Source: Armatimonadota bacterium (lineage in GTDB: Bacteria > Armatimonadota > Chthonomonadetes > Chthonomonadales > JAMCWF01). From it: DNA of 36,317 nucleotides. Under the pieces are notes generated by a model, which did no database searches, was not told where the DNA came from, and saw only the letters and a list, made by a program, of their open reading frames with translations. The DNA lies in the NCBI GenBank assembly GCA_023481295.1, contig JAMCWF010000035.1:14582-50898 (forward strand). Direction: 5' to 3'. Position numbers and translations under genes: made by a program. Positions 7,036-11,239 of this stretch are shown here, piece after piece (positions within the stretch are counted from its first letter, which is position 1; every line of letters begins with the position of its first letter).

Positions 7036-7064
7036 TTGACAATTCAGACCGCTCGTGCGATAAT
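7036..7064 (+). promoter_or_regulatory. Predicted sigma70-type promoter driving the HTH gene and candidate graspetide locus
   Basis: TTGACA (7036-7041), 17-bp spacer, GATAAT (7059-7064), about 97 nt upstream of the ATG at 7161. Confidence 0.75.
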
Positions 7065-7160
7065 AACAGACGCTGAGCCGTTCTATCCGAGTGTCTTGCA
7101 ACGTTGTTTTATTGCAATAATGGCTGTGAACCCACATTTGGATCGCGAGGAGAACTGGCA

Positions 7161-7409
7161 ATGAAGCAACCACCTAGAGGTTTGATCCTCAGCCGGGCAT
7201 TGCTGGAGTTAATTCAAGCCAGCCTGGATAGGCGAACCACCAACCACCGTGACCTCGCAGCGCAACTCTGCAAGTCATCGGAGACGGTGCGCACCGAGTT
7301 TGCTCAGATCAGGGAAAAGCTAGGCGCCAAAACCCTCTTTGAGGCGATATTGATCGCAGTCCAAAAAGGTTGGGTGAAGCCGCCCCCCCCGCAGGATGAT
7401 GGATCTTGA
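7161..7409 (+). CDS. Stand-alone LuxR-type helix-turn-helix regulator (82 aa)
   Basis: ATG at 7161 preceded by 'GCGAGGAGAACTGGCA' (SD). HTH pattern 'TTNHRDLAAQLCKSSETVRTEFAQIREKLGAKTLFEAILIAVQKGWV'. The ORF track start at 7104 is probably too far upstream. Confidence 0.72.
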   Translation: MKQPPRGLILSRALLELIQASLDRRTTNHRDLAAQLCKSSETVRTEFAQIREKLGAKTLFEAILIAVQKGWVKPPPPQDDGS

Positions 7410-7429
7410 ACCCTGCCGATTTACGAAAA

Positions 7430-7449
7430 AATACCTCAATTGAGGTATT
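7430..7449. promoter_or_regulatory. 20-bp perfect palindrome, candidate operator
   Basis: AATACCTCAATTGAGGTATT, 21 bp after the HTH gene stop and about 98 bp upstream of the candidate precursor ORF. Confidence 0.55.
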
Positions 7450-7547
7450 CACAAGCCAATCGGACATATCGTAGAATATCGCTGATGGTTCGGTAATATG
7501 ATCAATAATCAGTTACCGGACTAAATCCGGAGAAAGTAAGCGTCGGA

Positions 7548-7760
7548 ATGGAAAGTTTAAACCCATCACAAACGCAGGAATGCTTTACCCCATTCGTGAT
7601 GCTCTGGGCAAAAAGCGTGCCGGCGGGATCGTTTTACGGGCCCCAGGCTCAGTTTTCGGAGGCGAGCGGCGGATTTCGCATCGATCCGGAAGATACGGAC
7701 GCCGAAAATAGCAATGAAAACACACATCACATTGAGTCGAGCATTTCGTACACTTGGTGA
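7548..7760 (+). CDS. Candidate ATP-grasp-modified RiPP (graspetide) precursor peptide, 70 aa
   Basis: MESLNPSQTQECFTPFVMLWAKSVPAGSFYGPQAQFSEASGGFRIDPEDTDAENSNENTHHIESSISYTW. The leader-like 'TPFVMLWAKSVPAGSF' resembles the PFxxxxAxxVP signature I recall for putative ATP-grasp target RiPPs. The tail is rich in D/E and S/T. It lies upstream of an MvdC/D-like ATP-grasp gene, and GGAGAAAG lies upstream of the ATG. Confidence 0.6.
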   Translation: MESLNPSQTQECFTPFVMLWAKSVPAGSFYGPQAQFSEASGGFRIDPEDTDAENSNENTHHIESSISYTW

Positions 7761-7791
7761 TATGGAAAAAAACATAGCGAATTCCATATCA
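7758..7791 (+). promoter_or_regulatory. Hairpin overlapping the precursor stop codon (10-bp perfect stem, 14-nt loop)
   Basis: TGATATGGAA (7758-7767) / TTCCATATCA (7782-7791); no U-tract follows. Confidence 0.55.
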
Positions 7792-7829
7792 TTGTGACAG
7801 GTAGGGAATGCTCACGATTGAAGAAACTA

Positions 7830-7871
7830 TCTCCATCTTGCCGTAAAATATCCTCTATGGCAAGATGGAGA
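7830..7871 (+). promoter_or_regulatory. Hairpin (13-bp perfect stem, 16-nt loop) immediately upstream of the SD of the 7887 gene
   Basis: TCTCCATCTTGCC (7830-7842) / GGCAAGATGGAGA (7859-7871), followed by GAAGGA and the ATG at 7887. Confidence 0.65.
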
Positions 7872-7886
7872 CGAAGGAATTGATTT

Positions 7887-8459
7887 ATGAACCGAATAAA
7901 AAAGAGGATCTTATTTTCAATCCTTGTTTGCTGTTTTCTAGGAGGCATTATTTATCTTACAGGATGGGTTGGAGGGAGATTCGGTGGTTCAGTCAATGGA
8001 TTCCCGCAACAACTCGTCCCTAGAGTACTACACCTAACACCGCAGACAGTGCAGGTATGCCAGCAGCTCAATGCCTTTATTGGTGTTAGACCAGGTGTAG
8101 GACCACAGAAGACACATTATAACCGTCCGGAATTCGACAAACTTCTTTCATATATCTACTACCCCGACAAGTCACCTGGCGATTGGATGGTAAATGGTAC
8201 AGGGGTAGGCACATTATATTTTGTACATCTTCCGAAGAATGATCCTGCTTTAAGGCAGTATGAGAGGGCGTGGATGGTAAAAGTTGTAAACGATTTCATA
8301 GAACACCCTCTGCCGGTGATTCGGTGGGAAGCCGCACACATTGTGGATGTTCAACATTTGAAGAGGGCAGTTCCGGCATTGCAATCTGCGCTGAAAGTTG
8401 AGAAGAACCCTGTCGTAGCCAAAGAGATACGGGCCGCGATTAAGGCATGTAATAAATAG
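7887..8459 (+). CDS. Membrane-anchored hypothetical protein with a HEAT-repeat-like C-terminus
   Basis: N-terminal TM segment 'KKRILFSILVCCFLGGIIYLTGWVGG'; C-terminal helical repeat-like 'HPLPVIRWEAAHIVDVQHLKRAVPALQSALKVEKNPVVAKEIRAAIKA'. SD GAAGGA; 10 nt upstream of the ATP-grasp gene. Confidence 0.7.
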   Translation: MNRIKKRILFSILVCCFLGGIIYLTGWVGGRFGGSVNGFPQQLVPRVLHLTPQTVQVCQQLNAFIGVRPGVGPQKTHYNRPEFDKLLSYIYYPDKSPGDWMVNGTGVGTLYFVHLPKNDPALRQYERAWMVKVVNDFIEHPLPVIRWEAAHIVDVQHLKRAVPALQSALKVEKNPVVAKEIRAAIKACNK

Positions 8460-8469
8460 GTGCAACCGC

Positions 8470-9552
8470 ATGAAAAAGCCGTATGTTTTTATTATTTCAC
8501 AATTTTTCGAGCCAAACGTTGATGCGGTGATCTCCAGATTAAACCAACGCGGTGTGTCATATTTTCGATTAAACACCGAGACAATTCCACTAATTACGAC
8601 TATAAGTCTTTATGAAGGCGCCGAGGAATTATACACGATAATTTCATGTGATGGCAAGCAGGTTGACACGCGCTGCATTACATCGGTATGGCGACGCCGA
8701 AATGGAGAGTTCGTTTACCCGAACGTTTCATGCGCACAGGAACGTGGGTTTATCAGGCACGAATCCGCCAGCATGCTTCACGGTGCTTTTGAAAGTATGC
8801 GTTGTTCATGGGTTAATCATTTTATGAGTGATTACCGAGCAAATGTAAAACCTTATCAATATGAGATAGCAAAGCAGGTTGGACTGACGGTTTCGCGAAC
8901 ACTAATCACCAATGATCCCGATGCGGTTAAAGAATTCGCAAGATCTTTGCCAGTGCCAGTGTTGTTTAAACCTGTTATTGGGTTAACGACCGGCGGGCCA
9001 CCCAATTTTTCGGCTGAAATCCAAGCCACGTATGATGGTAAATTCAATATCCCACCTGCTATACCGGAATCCCGTGGCTCGGAAGTTAGGGCATTATTCT
9101 CTCAAGTCTTAGACGATGATAAAATTAAACACCTTAATACTATCGCTGGTTGCCCAGCAATATTCCAAGAATATATAAAAAAGCGTGTCGAAATACGAAT
9201 TACAATTATTGGTAACGATATGTTCCCAGTAGAAATACATTCTCAGGATCGTGAAGATACTAAAGTTGATTTTCGTGCGCAAACTCTGCTAGAAACCTCT
9301 CAATTTCTTCACCATGAGGTCCATAAGTTGCCTGATGATATCAGTGCTAAACTTATGAAATTGATGAAAGAATTAAACCTTGTTTTTGGATGCGTAGATA
9401 TGATATTAACACCGAATGGTGAATATGTTTTTTTAGAAGTAAATACGGCCGGTCAATGGGGATGGATTGAGCACTTAACCGGATTAAAGATCACCGATGC
9501 GTTAACTGATTTGCTCATCCGAGGATCAATAGATTCAGAATATAACGTATGA
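8470..9552 (+). CDS. MvdC/MvdD/TgmB-like ATP-grasp RiPP maturase (graspetide ligase)
   Basis: Family-type segments: 'DTRCITSVWRRRNGEF', 'CSWVNHFMSDYRANVKPYQYEIAKQVGLTVSRTLITNDPDAVKEF', 'PVLFKPVIG', 'AIFQEYIKKRVEIRITIIGNDMFPVEIHSQDREDTKVDFR', 'VFGCVDMILTPNGEYVFLEVNTAGQWGWIEHLTGLKITDALTDLLI'. Confidence 0.88.
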   Translation: MKKPYVFIISQFFEPNVDAVISRLNQRGVSYFRLNTETIPLITTISLYEGAEELYTIISCDGKQVDTRCITSVWRRRNGEFVYPNVSCAQERGFIRHESASMLHGAFESMRCSWVNHFMSDYRANVKPYQYEIAKQVGLTVSRTLITNDPDAVKEFARSLPVPVLFKPVIGLTTGGPPNFSAEIQATYDGKFNIPPAIPESRGSEVRALFSQVLDDDKIKHLNTIAGCPAIFQEYIKKRVEIRITIIGNDMFPVEIHSQDREDTKVDFRAQTLLETSQFLHHEVHKLPDDISAKLMKLMKELNLVFGCVDMILTPNGEYVFLEVNTAGQWGWIEHLTGLKITDALTDLLIRGSIDSEYNV

Positions 9553-9577
9553 CATCCTTTGCGTAAGATAAGCCAAT

Positions 9578-11239
9578 ATGAAAGAATCCAATAATAAAAT
9601 TTTTGAGTCTAAGCAATTAGATCCAGTTGAAGGAAATAATGTCAAAAATAATGTTACGGTGAAAGCACCCGACAAGGCAGAAAGGGCTGCCGATCTTATC
9701 GTCTGTACCGGCATTTTAGCTTACGCTGTATTCTACGGGTTTCTATCAGTAAGACGGGTAATCCGATTAGAAGCCGGCGCCTTCGATCTCGGAATTTATG
9801 ACCAAGCAATCTGGCAAATAGCCCATTTTCAGCATCTATTCAGCACCGTGCGGGGGATGAACCTTTTCGGCGATCATTTCACTCCAATTCTATTTCTATT
9901 GGCTCCATTGTACTGGTTCTTCCCGGAGCCGCAGGGGTTGGTCGTTTTTCAAGCCATCGCGCTAGCCCTTGGTGCATGGCCGATATACCGAATTGCCCGG
10001 CGGCATTCTGTATCTCCTTTCCTGGCTACCGGACTTGCTCTATCTTACTTGATGGCGCCGGCCCTTGCCTATCCTCCCCTCTTCGACTTTCATCCGAACG
10101 TGCTCGCCGCACCCTTGTTGTTATTTGCAATCGATTCGGTGGAACGTGAAAACTACCGAATATTTGTAGTTTGGATAACGCTGGCTTTGCTATGTCGCCA
10201 AGACATTGCTTTAAGTGTGGCGGTGCTTGGGTTGGCTATCATCCTAAGAACCTTCTCGATTCGAGGAAATAATCATTATCATGATGAACCCGATCTCATA
10301 AACGATCAACGAGTGGCAAGACGCCGACGCGCTCGATTCATAGCGGGTATCTTAACGATGCTGGCCGGTATTTTATGGTTAATGGGCAGTATGTATATGA
10401 TTACCCTGGTATCCGGTCATGTGACAGGTTATGTTGCTCTCTATAGTCATTTCGGTCGTACACCGCTTCAGATCATTGAAAACGTTACACTGCATCCAAT
10501 CCGAACGATTTCCTATGTTTCCAATCCTGCAACGGCTGATTTTATATTACAACTTATTCTACCAACCGCTGGTCTTTGTCTTTTGTGCCCAGAAATATTA
10601 ATGGTGACGCTTCCAGAACTTGCAATGGATATTCTTAGTGACCGCTGGATTATGCAGACGATTCGCGCTCAATATACCCCGGCAATTCTTCCATTTGTTT
10701 ATGCAGCGGCCGCCGTTGGTTTAGGACGTTTGATGGCGGCGCTACACCGTTTTGAACTGGTTCCACAAATAACCGAGTCATTGGCGGGCCTGATTTTTGT
10801 TCTGTTAGTAGGTTTCTGTTTTTGGAGTTACGGCCCCAGGGACATCTTTCATGAAATTTGGTCCGGTTATTTGACTGAAACCGTGTTGCAAGAGCGGGAA
10901 GCATTACTGTCCAAAATACCGGCAGCGGCTTCAGTATCCGCTGGTTGGGACTTTGTGGTCCCGCTCGATCATCGGAATCAAATCTATATGTTTCCAAATC
11001 CATTCATTAAGGCTTGGTATGGACCCGGAACCGCAGTTATCCGACAAGAGGATTTGAACTATCACCCCCCGCTACCGACAAAATTAAAACCCTTGTTGGC
11101 AAAGCACCCAATAGATTATATCGTAGCAACCGACTCAGGCCAGTATAAATCGTTGCTTAAAGCAGCAGTTAAATATGGTTTATATAAGATCGTATCTAGA
11201 AAAGGCAAGATGATTATACTGAAACGATCCAATCAATGA
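9578..11239 (+). CDS. DUF2079 polytopic membrane protein (GT-C-like)
   Basis: 'RVIRLEAGAFDLGIYDQAIWQIAHFQHLFSTVRGMNLFGDHFTPILFLLAPLYWFFPEPQGLVVFQAIALALGAWPIYRIARR' typical of DUF2079; many TM segments. Confidence 0.85.
   Translation: MKESNNKIFESKQLDPVEGNNVKNNVTVKAPDKAERAADLIVCTGILAYAVFYGFLSVRRVIRLEAGAFDLGIYDQAIWQIAHFQHLFSTVRGMNLFGDHFTPILFLLAPLYWFFPEPQGLVVFQAIALALGAWPIYRIARRHSVSPFLATGLALSYLMAPALAYPPLFDFHPNVLAAPLLLFAIDSVERENYRIFVVWITLALLCRQDIALSVAVLGLAIILRTFSIRGNNHYHDEPDLINDQRVARRRRARFIAGILTMLAGILWLMGSMYMITLVSGHVTGYVALYSHFGRTPLQIIENVTLHPIRTISYVSNPATADFILQLILPTAGLCLLCPEILMVTLPELAMDILSDRWIMQTIRAQYTPAILPFVYAAAAVGLGRLMAALHRFELVPQITESLAGLIFVLLVGFCFWSYGPRDIFHEIWSGYLTETVLQEREALLSKIPAAASVSAGWDFVVPLDHRNQIYMFPNPFIKAWYGPGTAVIRQEDLNYHPPLPTKLKPLLAKHPIDYIVATDSGQYKSLLKAAVKYGLYKIVSRKGKMIILKRSNQ

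Follow-up and report, generated by a model that had tools for sequence, protein, structure and literature searches.

A probable graspetide biosynthetic cluster in a draft Armatimonadota genome

Does a five-gene stretch in a draft Armatimonadota genome direct the synthesis of a graspetide, a ribosomally synthesized and post-translationally modified peptide (RiPP) whose side chains are cross-linked by an ATP-grasp ligase? The stretch lies in a 36,317-nucleotide piece of DNA (G000:C20:14582-50898, referred to as the window) from G000, a 1.23-Mb, 65%-complete draft genome of Chthonomonadales, an order within Armatimonadota. A first-pass annotation had placed there genes for a stand-alone helix-turn-helix (HTH) regulator, a candidate precursor peptide, a membrane-anchored partner, an ATP-grasp ligase and a DUF2079 membrane protein; each of the five open reading frames (ORFs) was located at the position given for it, all on the plus strand (Table 1). 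The ligase and the partner were searched for among 292 Armatimonadota genomes and the precursor among 31 genomes of the order, and three relatives were compared with G000: G001, from the same genus; G005, from the same order; and G015, a congener of G005. On the observed gene content, homology, conservation and co-occurrence, together with a palindrome and hairpins, we conclude that the stretch is very probably a graspetide cluster of its own, with a distinct precursor and distinct helper genes, and with ring-forming residues that may follow an unusual order. We put the probability that it is a small graspetide biosynthetic cluster, the proposed chemistry and roles included, at roughly 85%.

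The ligase had been described as similar to MvdC, MvdD and TgmB, and characterised graspetide synthetases did indeed come first in profile, sequence and predicted-fold comparisons. The MvdD pre-ATP-grasp domain (PF21068) was matched above the Pfam gathering score, and the best NCBIfam models were TIGR04187 (1.9e-70), MvdD and MvdC (down to 2.2e-60), with RimK at 1.6e-13. A PDB search with a profile of the three ligases of the family returned graspetide synthetases only (MdnC, MdnB, CdnC, AMdnB, PruB and PsnB; E 8.5e-44 to 1.7e-7), the next family appearing at 0.02. When the AlphaFold model of the ligase (mean predicted local distance difference test score, pLDDT, 72; low at residues 80-95, 170-210 and 259-279) was searched using Foldseek, ranks 1-32 were all occupied by graspetide synthetases, MdnC being first, and RimK and LysX came afterwards. 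By profile and by Foldseek, the enzyme falls inside the graspetide synthetases. The DFR motif, which is critical for these enzymes (PMC13097080), is D267-F268-R269 in the ligase, and the ATP/Mg residues D310, E323 and N325 are present; D267, R269, D310, E323 and N325 are also retained by distant Armatimonadota homologues. An insertion at ca. 172-207, found neither in MdnC nor in other aligned homologues, marks the family, and the three ligases grouped as a 100/100 clade outside the Tgm and Mvd groups in a small tree whose backbone between graspetide groups was not resolved. Judged by its sequence and fold model, the ATP-grasp gene encodes a graspetide synthetase.

The candidate precursor proved to be conserved in related genomes, with four copies in three genomes (two of them in G005) and 23 residues invariant across all copies. 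In whole-gene Nei-Gojobori comparisons between genomes, the nonsynonymous rate (dN) was ca. 0.5-0.6, and for most pairs the synonymous rate (dS) exceeded 2 or was saturated. The invariant residues and a dS well above dN mark the precursor as a genuine gene and not a chance ORF. Between the two copies in G005, 2 of 28 leader residues differ, versus 22 of 46 core residues; a conserved leader followed by a variable core is the usual RiPP pattern. This contrast may in part stem from recent recombination, since the DNA of the G005 repeat units is 81-96% identical over some stretches. All precursors carry the leader block PFVM[LM]WAK, as PFVMLW or PFVMMW in 4/4, and this block fits Phhx(1,2)h, the graspetide leader rule (PMC8939145). 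The locus thus presents what is expected of a graspetide: a short precursor next to the ligase, with a conserved leader and with Ser/Thr/Lys and Asp/Glu in its core.

The wide profile and fold gap that separates the ligase from RimK and LysX also argues against a RimK/LysX-like enzyme that adds amino acids to, or joins, a small protein, with the 70-residue protein as its carrier or target, even though RimK and LysX are its next fold neighbours and the ligase scores below all graspetide cut-offs. The carrier protein of LysX-type enzymes, LysW, is small and acidic, and the precursor is likewise acidic in its C-terminal half; the precursor nevertheless ends without the LysW-type EDWGE C-terminus, and a split into conserved leader and variable core, as seen in the G005 copies, is not expected for a carrier protein. 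With the MvdD pre-ATP-grasp domain above its cut-off as well, we regard a RimK/LysX-like activity as very improbable and retain the graspetide synthetase assignment.

The precursor residues conserved by class are S37, E38, D49, D51, [ED]53, [ED]63, [ST]64, S65, [TS]67 and T69. An acid triad, PxDxDx[ED] (49, 51, 53), is located N-terminal to a Ser/Thr cluster (64, 65, 67, 69), and the only conserved nucleophiles ahead of the triad are S37 and, in the leader block, K22. In graspetides, the nucleophiles are typically N-terminal and the acids C-terminal, and an engineered ThfA variant in which they were swapped was unmodified (PMC12291112). A SEA(S/V)G(G/N) stretch follows the leader, although its GG-like part is not kept in the second G005 copy; if cleavage occurred here, the core would be left with no conserved Ser/Thr before the acid triad. 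We tentatively suggest, at less than even odds, that acceptors precede donors in this core; alternatively, S37 or K22 would act as the donor.

Rosaritide (mir, group 21, Micromonospora rosaria), with donors S8, S9 and T11 and acceptors D22, D24 and D26 (PMC13097080), offers a parallel. Its cluster shares with the Armatimonadota one a TIGR04187-matching synthetase, a short precursor and a strictly linked partner, and its peptide shares the D-x-D-x-D acceptor triad and the S-S-x-T donor set. In rosaritide, however, the donors come before the acceptors, whereas the like-looking sets are reversed in the Armatimonadota precursor; the rosaritide partner is PpiC/SurA-like and not a membrane-anchored, HEAT-like protein, and a peptidase-transporter (PCAT) is encoded where the Armatimonadota cluster has HTH and DUF2079 genes instead. 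It is possible, though we would not bet on it, that the D-x-D-x-[D/E] acceptors are joined to Ser/Thr residues at the very C-terminal end ([ST]-S-x-[TS]-Y-T) in a mirror image of rosaritide, with extra-membrane handling by the HEAT-like partner and the DUF2079 protein.

The ligase was found in three of the 292 genomes (G000, G001 and G005), the partner in the same three, and the precursor, within its own search set, in these three again. A scan of contigs with the ligase alignment and N-terminal patterns recovered two loci already found and nothing further. The gene order is kept between genomes, while the flanking genes are different or rearranged, and the unit is thereby delimited. The HTH gene is the exception: it is missing from the G005 cluster and is therefore not a core part, which refines an otherwise sustained description of the architecture as non-canonical. 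The genes are separated by 138 bp (HTH-precursor), 126 bp (precursor-partner), 10 bp (partner-ligase) and 25 bp (ligase-DUF2079). The palindrome, present once each in G000 and G001, and a hairpin behind every precursor support the proposal that they form a single regulated unit.

Table 1. Features of the candidate graspetide cluster (positions within the window)
Feature	Position	Strand	Basis
Promoter-like TTGACA-N17-GATAAT, extended -10	7036..7064	+	11/12 bases
Stand-alone putative LuxR-type HTH (82 aa), probable operon regulator	7161..7409	+	Weak GerE match, G001 counterpart
Perfect 20-bp palindrome AATACCTCAATTGAGGTATT, candidate HTH operator	7430..7449		Counterpart in G001
Candidate graspetide precursor, 70 aa; leader PFVMLWAK; core conserved D49, D51, E53, E63, S64, S65, S67, T69	7548..7760	+	Conservation, dN/dS
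Intercistronic RNA hairpin, 16-bp stem, behind precursor	7830..7871	+	z-scores
Membrane-anchored helical (HEAT/armadillo-like) partner, 190 aa	7887..8459	+	Transmembrane stretch 8-26, fold model, distribution
Predicted graspetide synthetase (ATP-grasp macrocyclase), 360 aa	8470..9552	+	Profile, sequence, predicted fold, tree
Multi-spanning DUF2079 membrane protein (553 aa), orthologue specific to the cluster	9578..11239	+	Pfam, orthologue group

The partner has the single N-terminal transmembrane stretch expected of a membrane-anchored protein, preceded by a lysine/arginine-rich N-terminus, and was modelled with confidence as an all-helical domain (mean pLDDT 84, mostly >90 from residue 80). 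Among the 292 genomes, full-length homologues were confined to the three that carry the cluster, and two further matches cover a small part of the model; no NCBIfam match was obtained, including to TIGR04500, the PpiC-type model of group 21. Its strict co-occurrence with the ligase and the 10-bp spacing of the two genes would suit an obligatory synthetase helper, like MirC for rosaritide, where partner dependence has a precedent (PMC13097080). In G005, however, three partners alternate with two precursors beside a single ligase, so that the partner was multiplied with the precursor and not with the enzyme. By the positive-inside rule, moreover, a Lys/Arg-rich N-terminus in front of a transmembrane stretch places the following domain outside the cytoplasm, where ATP-dependent ligation does not occur. 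A helper function is therefore rather unlikely. Because the partner is paired with the precursor and probably lies beyond the membrane, product binding or self-protection is favoured over a synthetase subunit; as far as its sequence and model indicate, it most likely serves outside the cytoplasm as a protein dedicated to one of these two tasks.

The DUF2079 assignment was confirmed by a Pfam match of 1.2e-60. Among themselves, the cluster copies share 56-63% identity, and other paralogues in the order reach at most 50% over shorter stretches, the G015 remnant aside; the cluster proteins form an orthologue group of their own, whose members always adjoin the ligase or what is left of it. In that remnant (L011:8614-9778), the last 40-odd ligase residues are fused in frame to the DUF2079 gene, which has itself lost ca. 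170 internal residues and undergone a frame change. At the G015 locus, either the whole cluster has decayed naturally or the draft assembly has introduced an artefact. That both genes are broken supports membership of DUF2079 in the cluster, although the draft state of the G015 genome calls for caution. DUF2079 has been placed near GT-C glycosyltransferases; the PDB offered no confirmation, as no relative was found there by sequence.

One could suppose that the DUF2079 and HTH genes are neighbours by chance and that the true cluster consists of precursor, partner and ligase, given that the G005 cluster has no HTH gene and that DUF2079 paralogues are scattered across these genomes. The restriction of the adjoining DUF2079 protein, encoded 25 bp downstream of the ligase in the window, to an orthologue group of its own speaks against this, as do its own breakage alongside the loss of the ligase in G015 and the genome-unique palindrome that accompanies the HTH gene. 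Chance neighbourhood is thus improbable, and we keep all five genes in the cluster. Downstream of the G005 cluster (L010:4000-8782), a prepilin-like protein, a more distant second DUF2079 gene split in two frames and then an apparent transposase pair were observed.

The regulatory part of the first-pass annotation stood in part. A protein 48% identical to the HTH protein is encoded at the same place in G001, while the Pfam GerE match on which a LuxR-type label would rest is weak (E 0.019; 15 bits against a gathering score of 23.5), the alignment covering the HTH end of regulators of this type. G000 and G001 each contain the pattern AATANNNCAATTGNNNTATT a single time, in both cases between the HTH gene and the precursor; one copy is present in G015, on a different contig, and G005, whose cluster is missing the HTH gene, contained only 3-mismatch matches, as many as expected by chance. 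As the G000 and G001 sites served to define the pattern, what is informative is their shared position and rarity. Hairpins were found in 4/4 precursor-partner gaps, with z from -3.1 to -4.8 and unrelated sequences; such a hairpin may act in processing, stabilisation or attenuation and so maintain a high level of precursor mRNA. The promoter string is present, as had been reported, but such sites are not enriched over shuffles (8 observed versus a shuffle mean of 9.5), and neither promoter nor terminator counts exceeded those in shuffled sequence.

From these elements we infer how the cross-links would form and what each component beyond the ligase-precursor pair would do. The HTH protein would probably bind the palindrome before the precursor gene and switch the operon, and the hairpin after the precursor would probably keep its mRNA above that of the downstream genes. 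The leader helix (PFVMLWAK) would dock on the ATP-grasp enzyme, which would phosphorylate conserved Asp/Glu residues of the core and join them to Ser/Thr as esters, with 18 Da lost per link. After leader cleavage and export, the product would meet the membrane-anchored partner, and the DUF2079 protein may be a membrane enzyme or carrier of the same pathway.

Several observations weigh against a graspetide cluster. Among the named graspetide-synthetase models in NCBIfam, there is none whose curated cut-off the ligase reaches: with 237.6 bits against 350 for TIGR04187, a cut-off reached by no Armatimonadota genome, it falls outside the TgmB subfamily, and with 204.5 and 205.5 bits for MvdC/MvdD (cut-offs 425 and 475) and as a single ligase, it falls outside those as well. 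The precursors gave no match to Pfam or NCBIfam at E 10, and in pairwise scoring with shuffles, the similarity of the leader to TgmA and microviridin precursors was not significant; leader homology to these is therefore not claimed. The bare Phhx(1,2)h string occurs in 20% of the small ORFs of the window, so only conservation of the motif is informative, and the rule was rejected as stand-alone evidence. The armadillo/HEAT-type fold matches of the partner are not significant (best E 0.017), and only three genomes carry the cluster. Finally, the unit has no cognate transporter or leader peptidase, and the earlier statement that methyltransferase, transporter and peptidase genes are absent from it was borne out. 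The nearest peptidase is a subtilase (PF00082) at 306-1538, 5.6 kb from the cluster. Its G001 orthologue (L009:12819-13976), with a DUF2961 gene alongside, lies directly upstream of the cluster in divergent orientation; no subtilase was seen beside the G005 cluster. The subtilase could be the leader peptidase in the genus of G000 and G001.

Compared with the microviridin systems (MdnA/MdnB/MdnC; MvdC/MvdD), the ligase has MdnC as its best match by both fold and profile, the leader helix is of the same type (PFFARFL versus PFVMLWAK), and the SEAVSGG of the Nostoc microviridin precursor resembles the SEA-GG-like stretch after the Armatimonadota leader. Microviridin clusters, however, encode two ligases instead of one, their ligases form a separate clade in the tree, their TxKYPSD core is not in the Armatimonadota precursor, and the HlyD/ABC exporter of the Nostoc locus has no counterpart in the cluster. 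As to TgmA/TgmB (SAV_5884-type; graspimiditides, group 13), TIGR04187 is the best NCBIfam model of the ligase, and the TgmA block RPWALRFAR looks like TPFVMLWAK, although not significantly so; the ligase score under the TIGR04187 cut-off, the lack of an isoaspartyl methyltransferase and a core different from that of TgmA set the cluster apart. A defence-system reading was dropped, PADLOC having given no match of note.

Among plasmid-borne homologues of the ligase, the closest are ca. 30% identical. On plasmids of Sinorhizobium americanum and Pseudomonas aeruginosa RW109, short TKTxxxxExDD-repeat proteins (L070:1273-1482 and L073:1090-1452) are encoded upstream of ligases annotated as 'hypothetical' or 'rimK_1', with a membrane protein of ca. 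220 aa downstream in both; by their repeats, these short proteins look like unannotated multi-core graspetide precursors. A different type of Armatimonadota locus, with two consecutive ATP-grasp genes, was seen at about 1400-3900 in L017, L020 and L022, and in the latter two the pair lies behind a protein resembling the C-terminal part of a galactose-oxidase-like enzyme.

Graspetides have been surveyed in 174 families (PMC8939145), and another survey raised the graspetide groups to 43 (PMC13097080); in their main texts, these two papers mention neither Armatimonadota nor DUF2079. The cluster adds two gene families that the graspetide papers covered by the search do not name in their main text, the HEAT-like membrane partner, which multiplies with the precursor, and the DUF2079 membrane protein. 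If the reverse order holds true, a natural family of this kind would widen the use of graspetide synthetases, and two small genes suffice for testing it.

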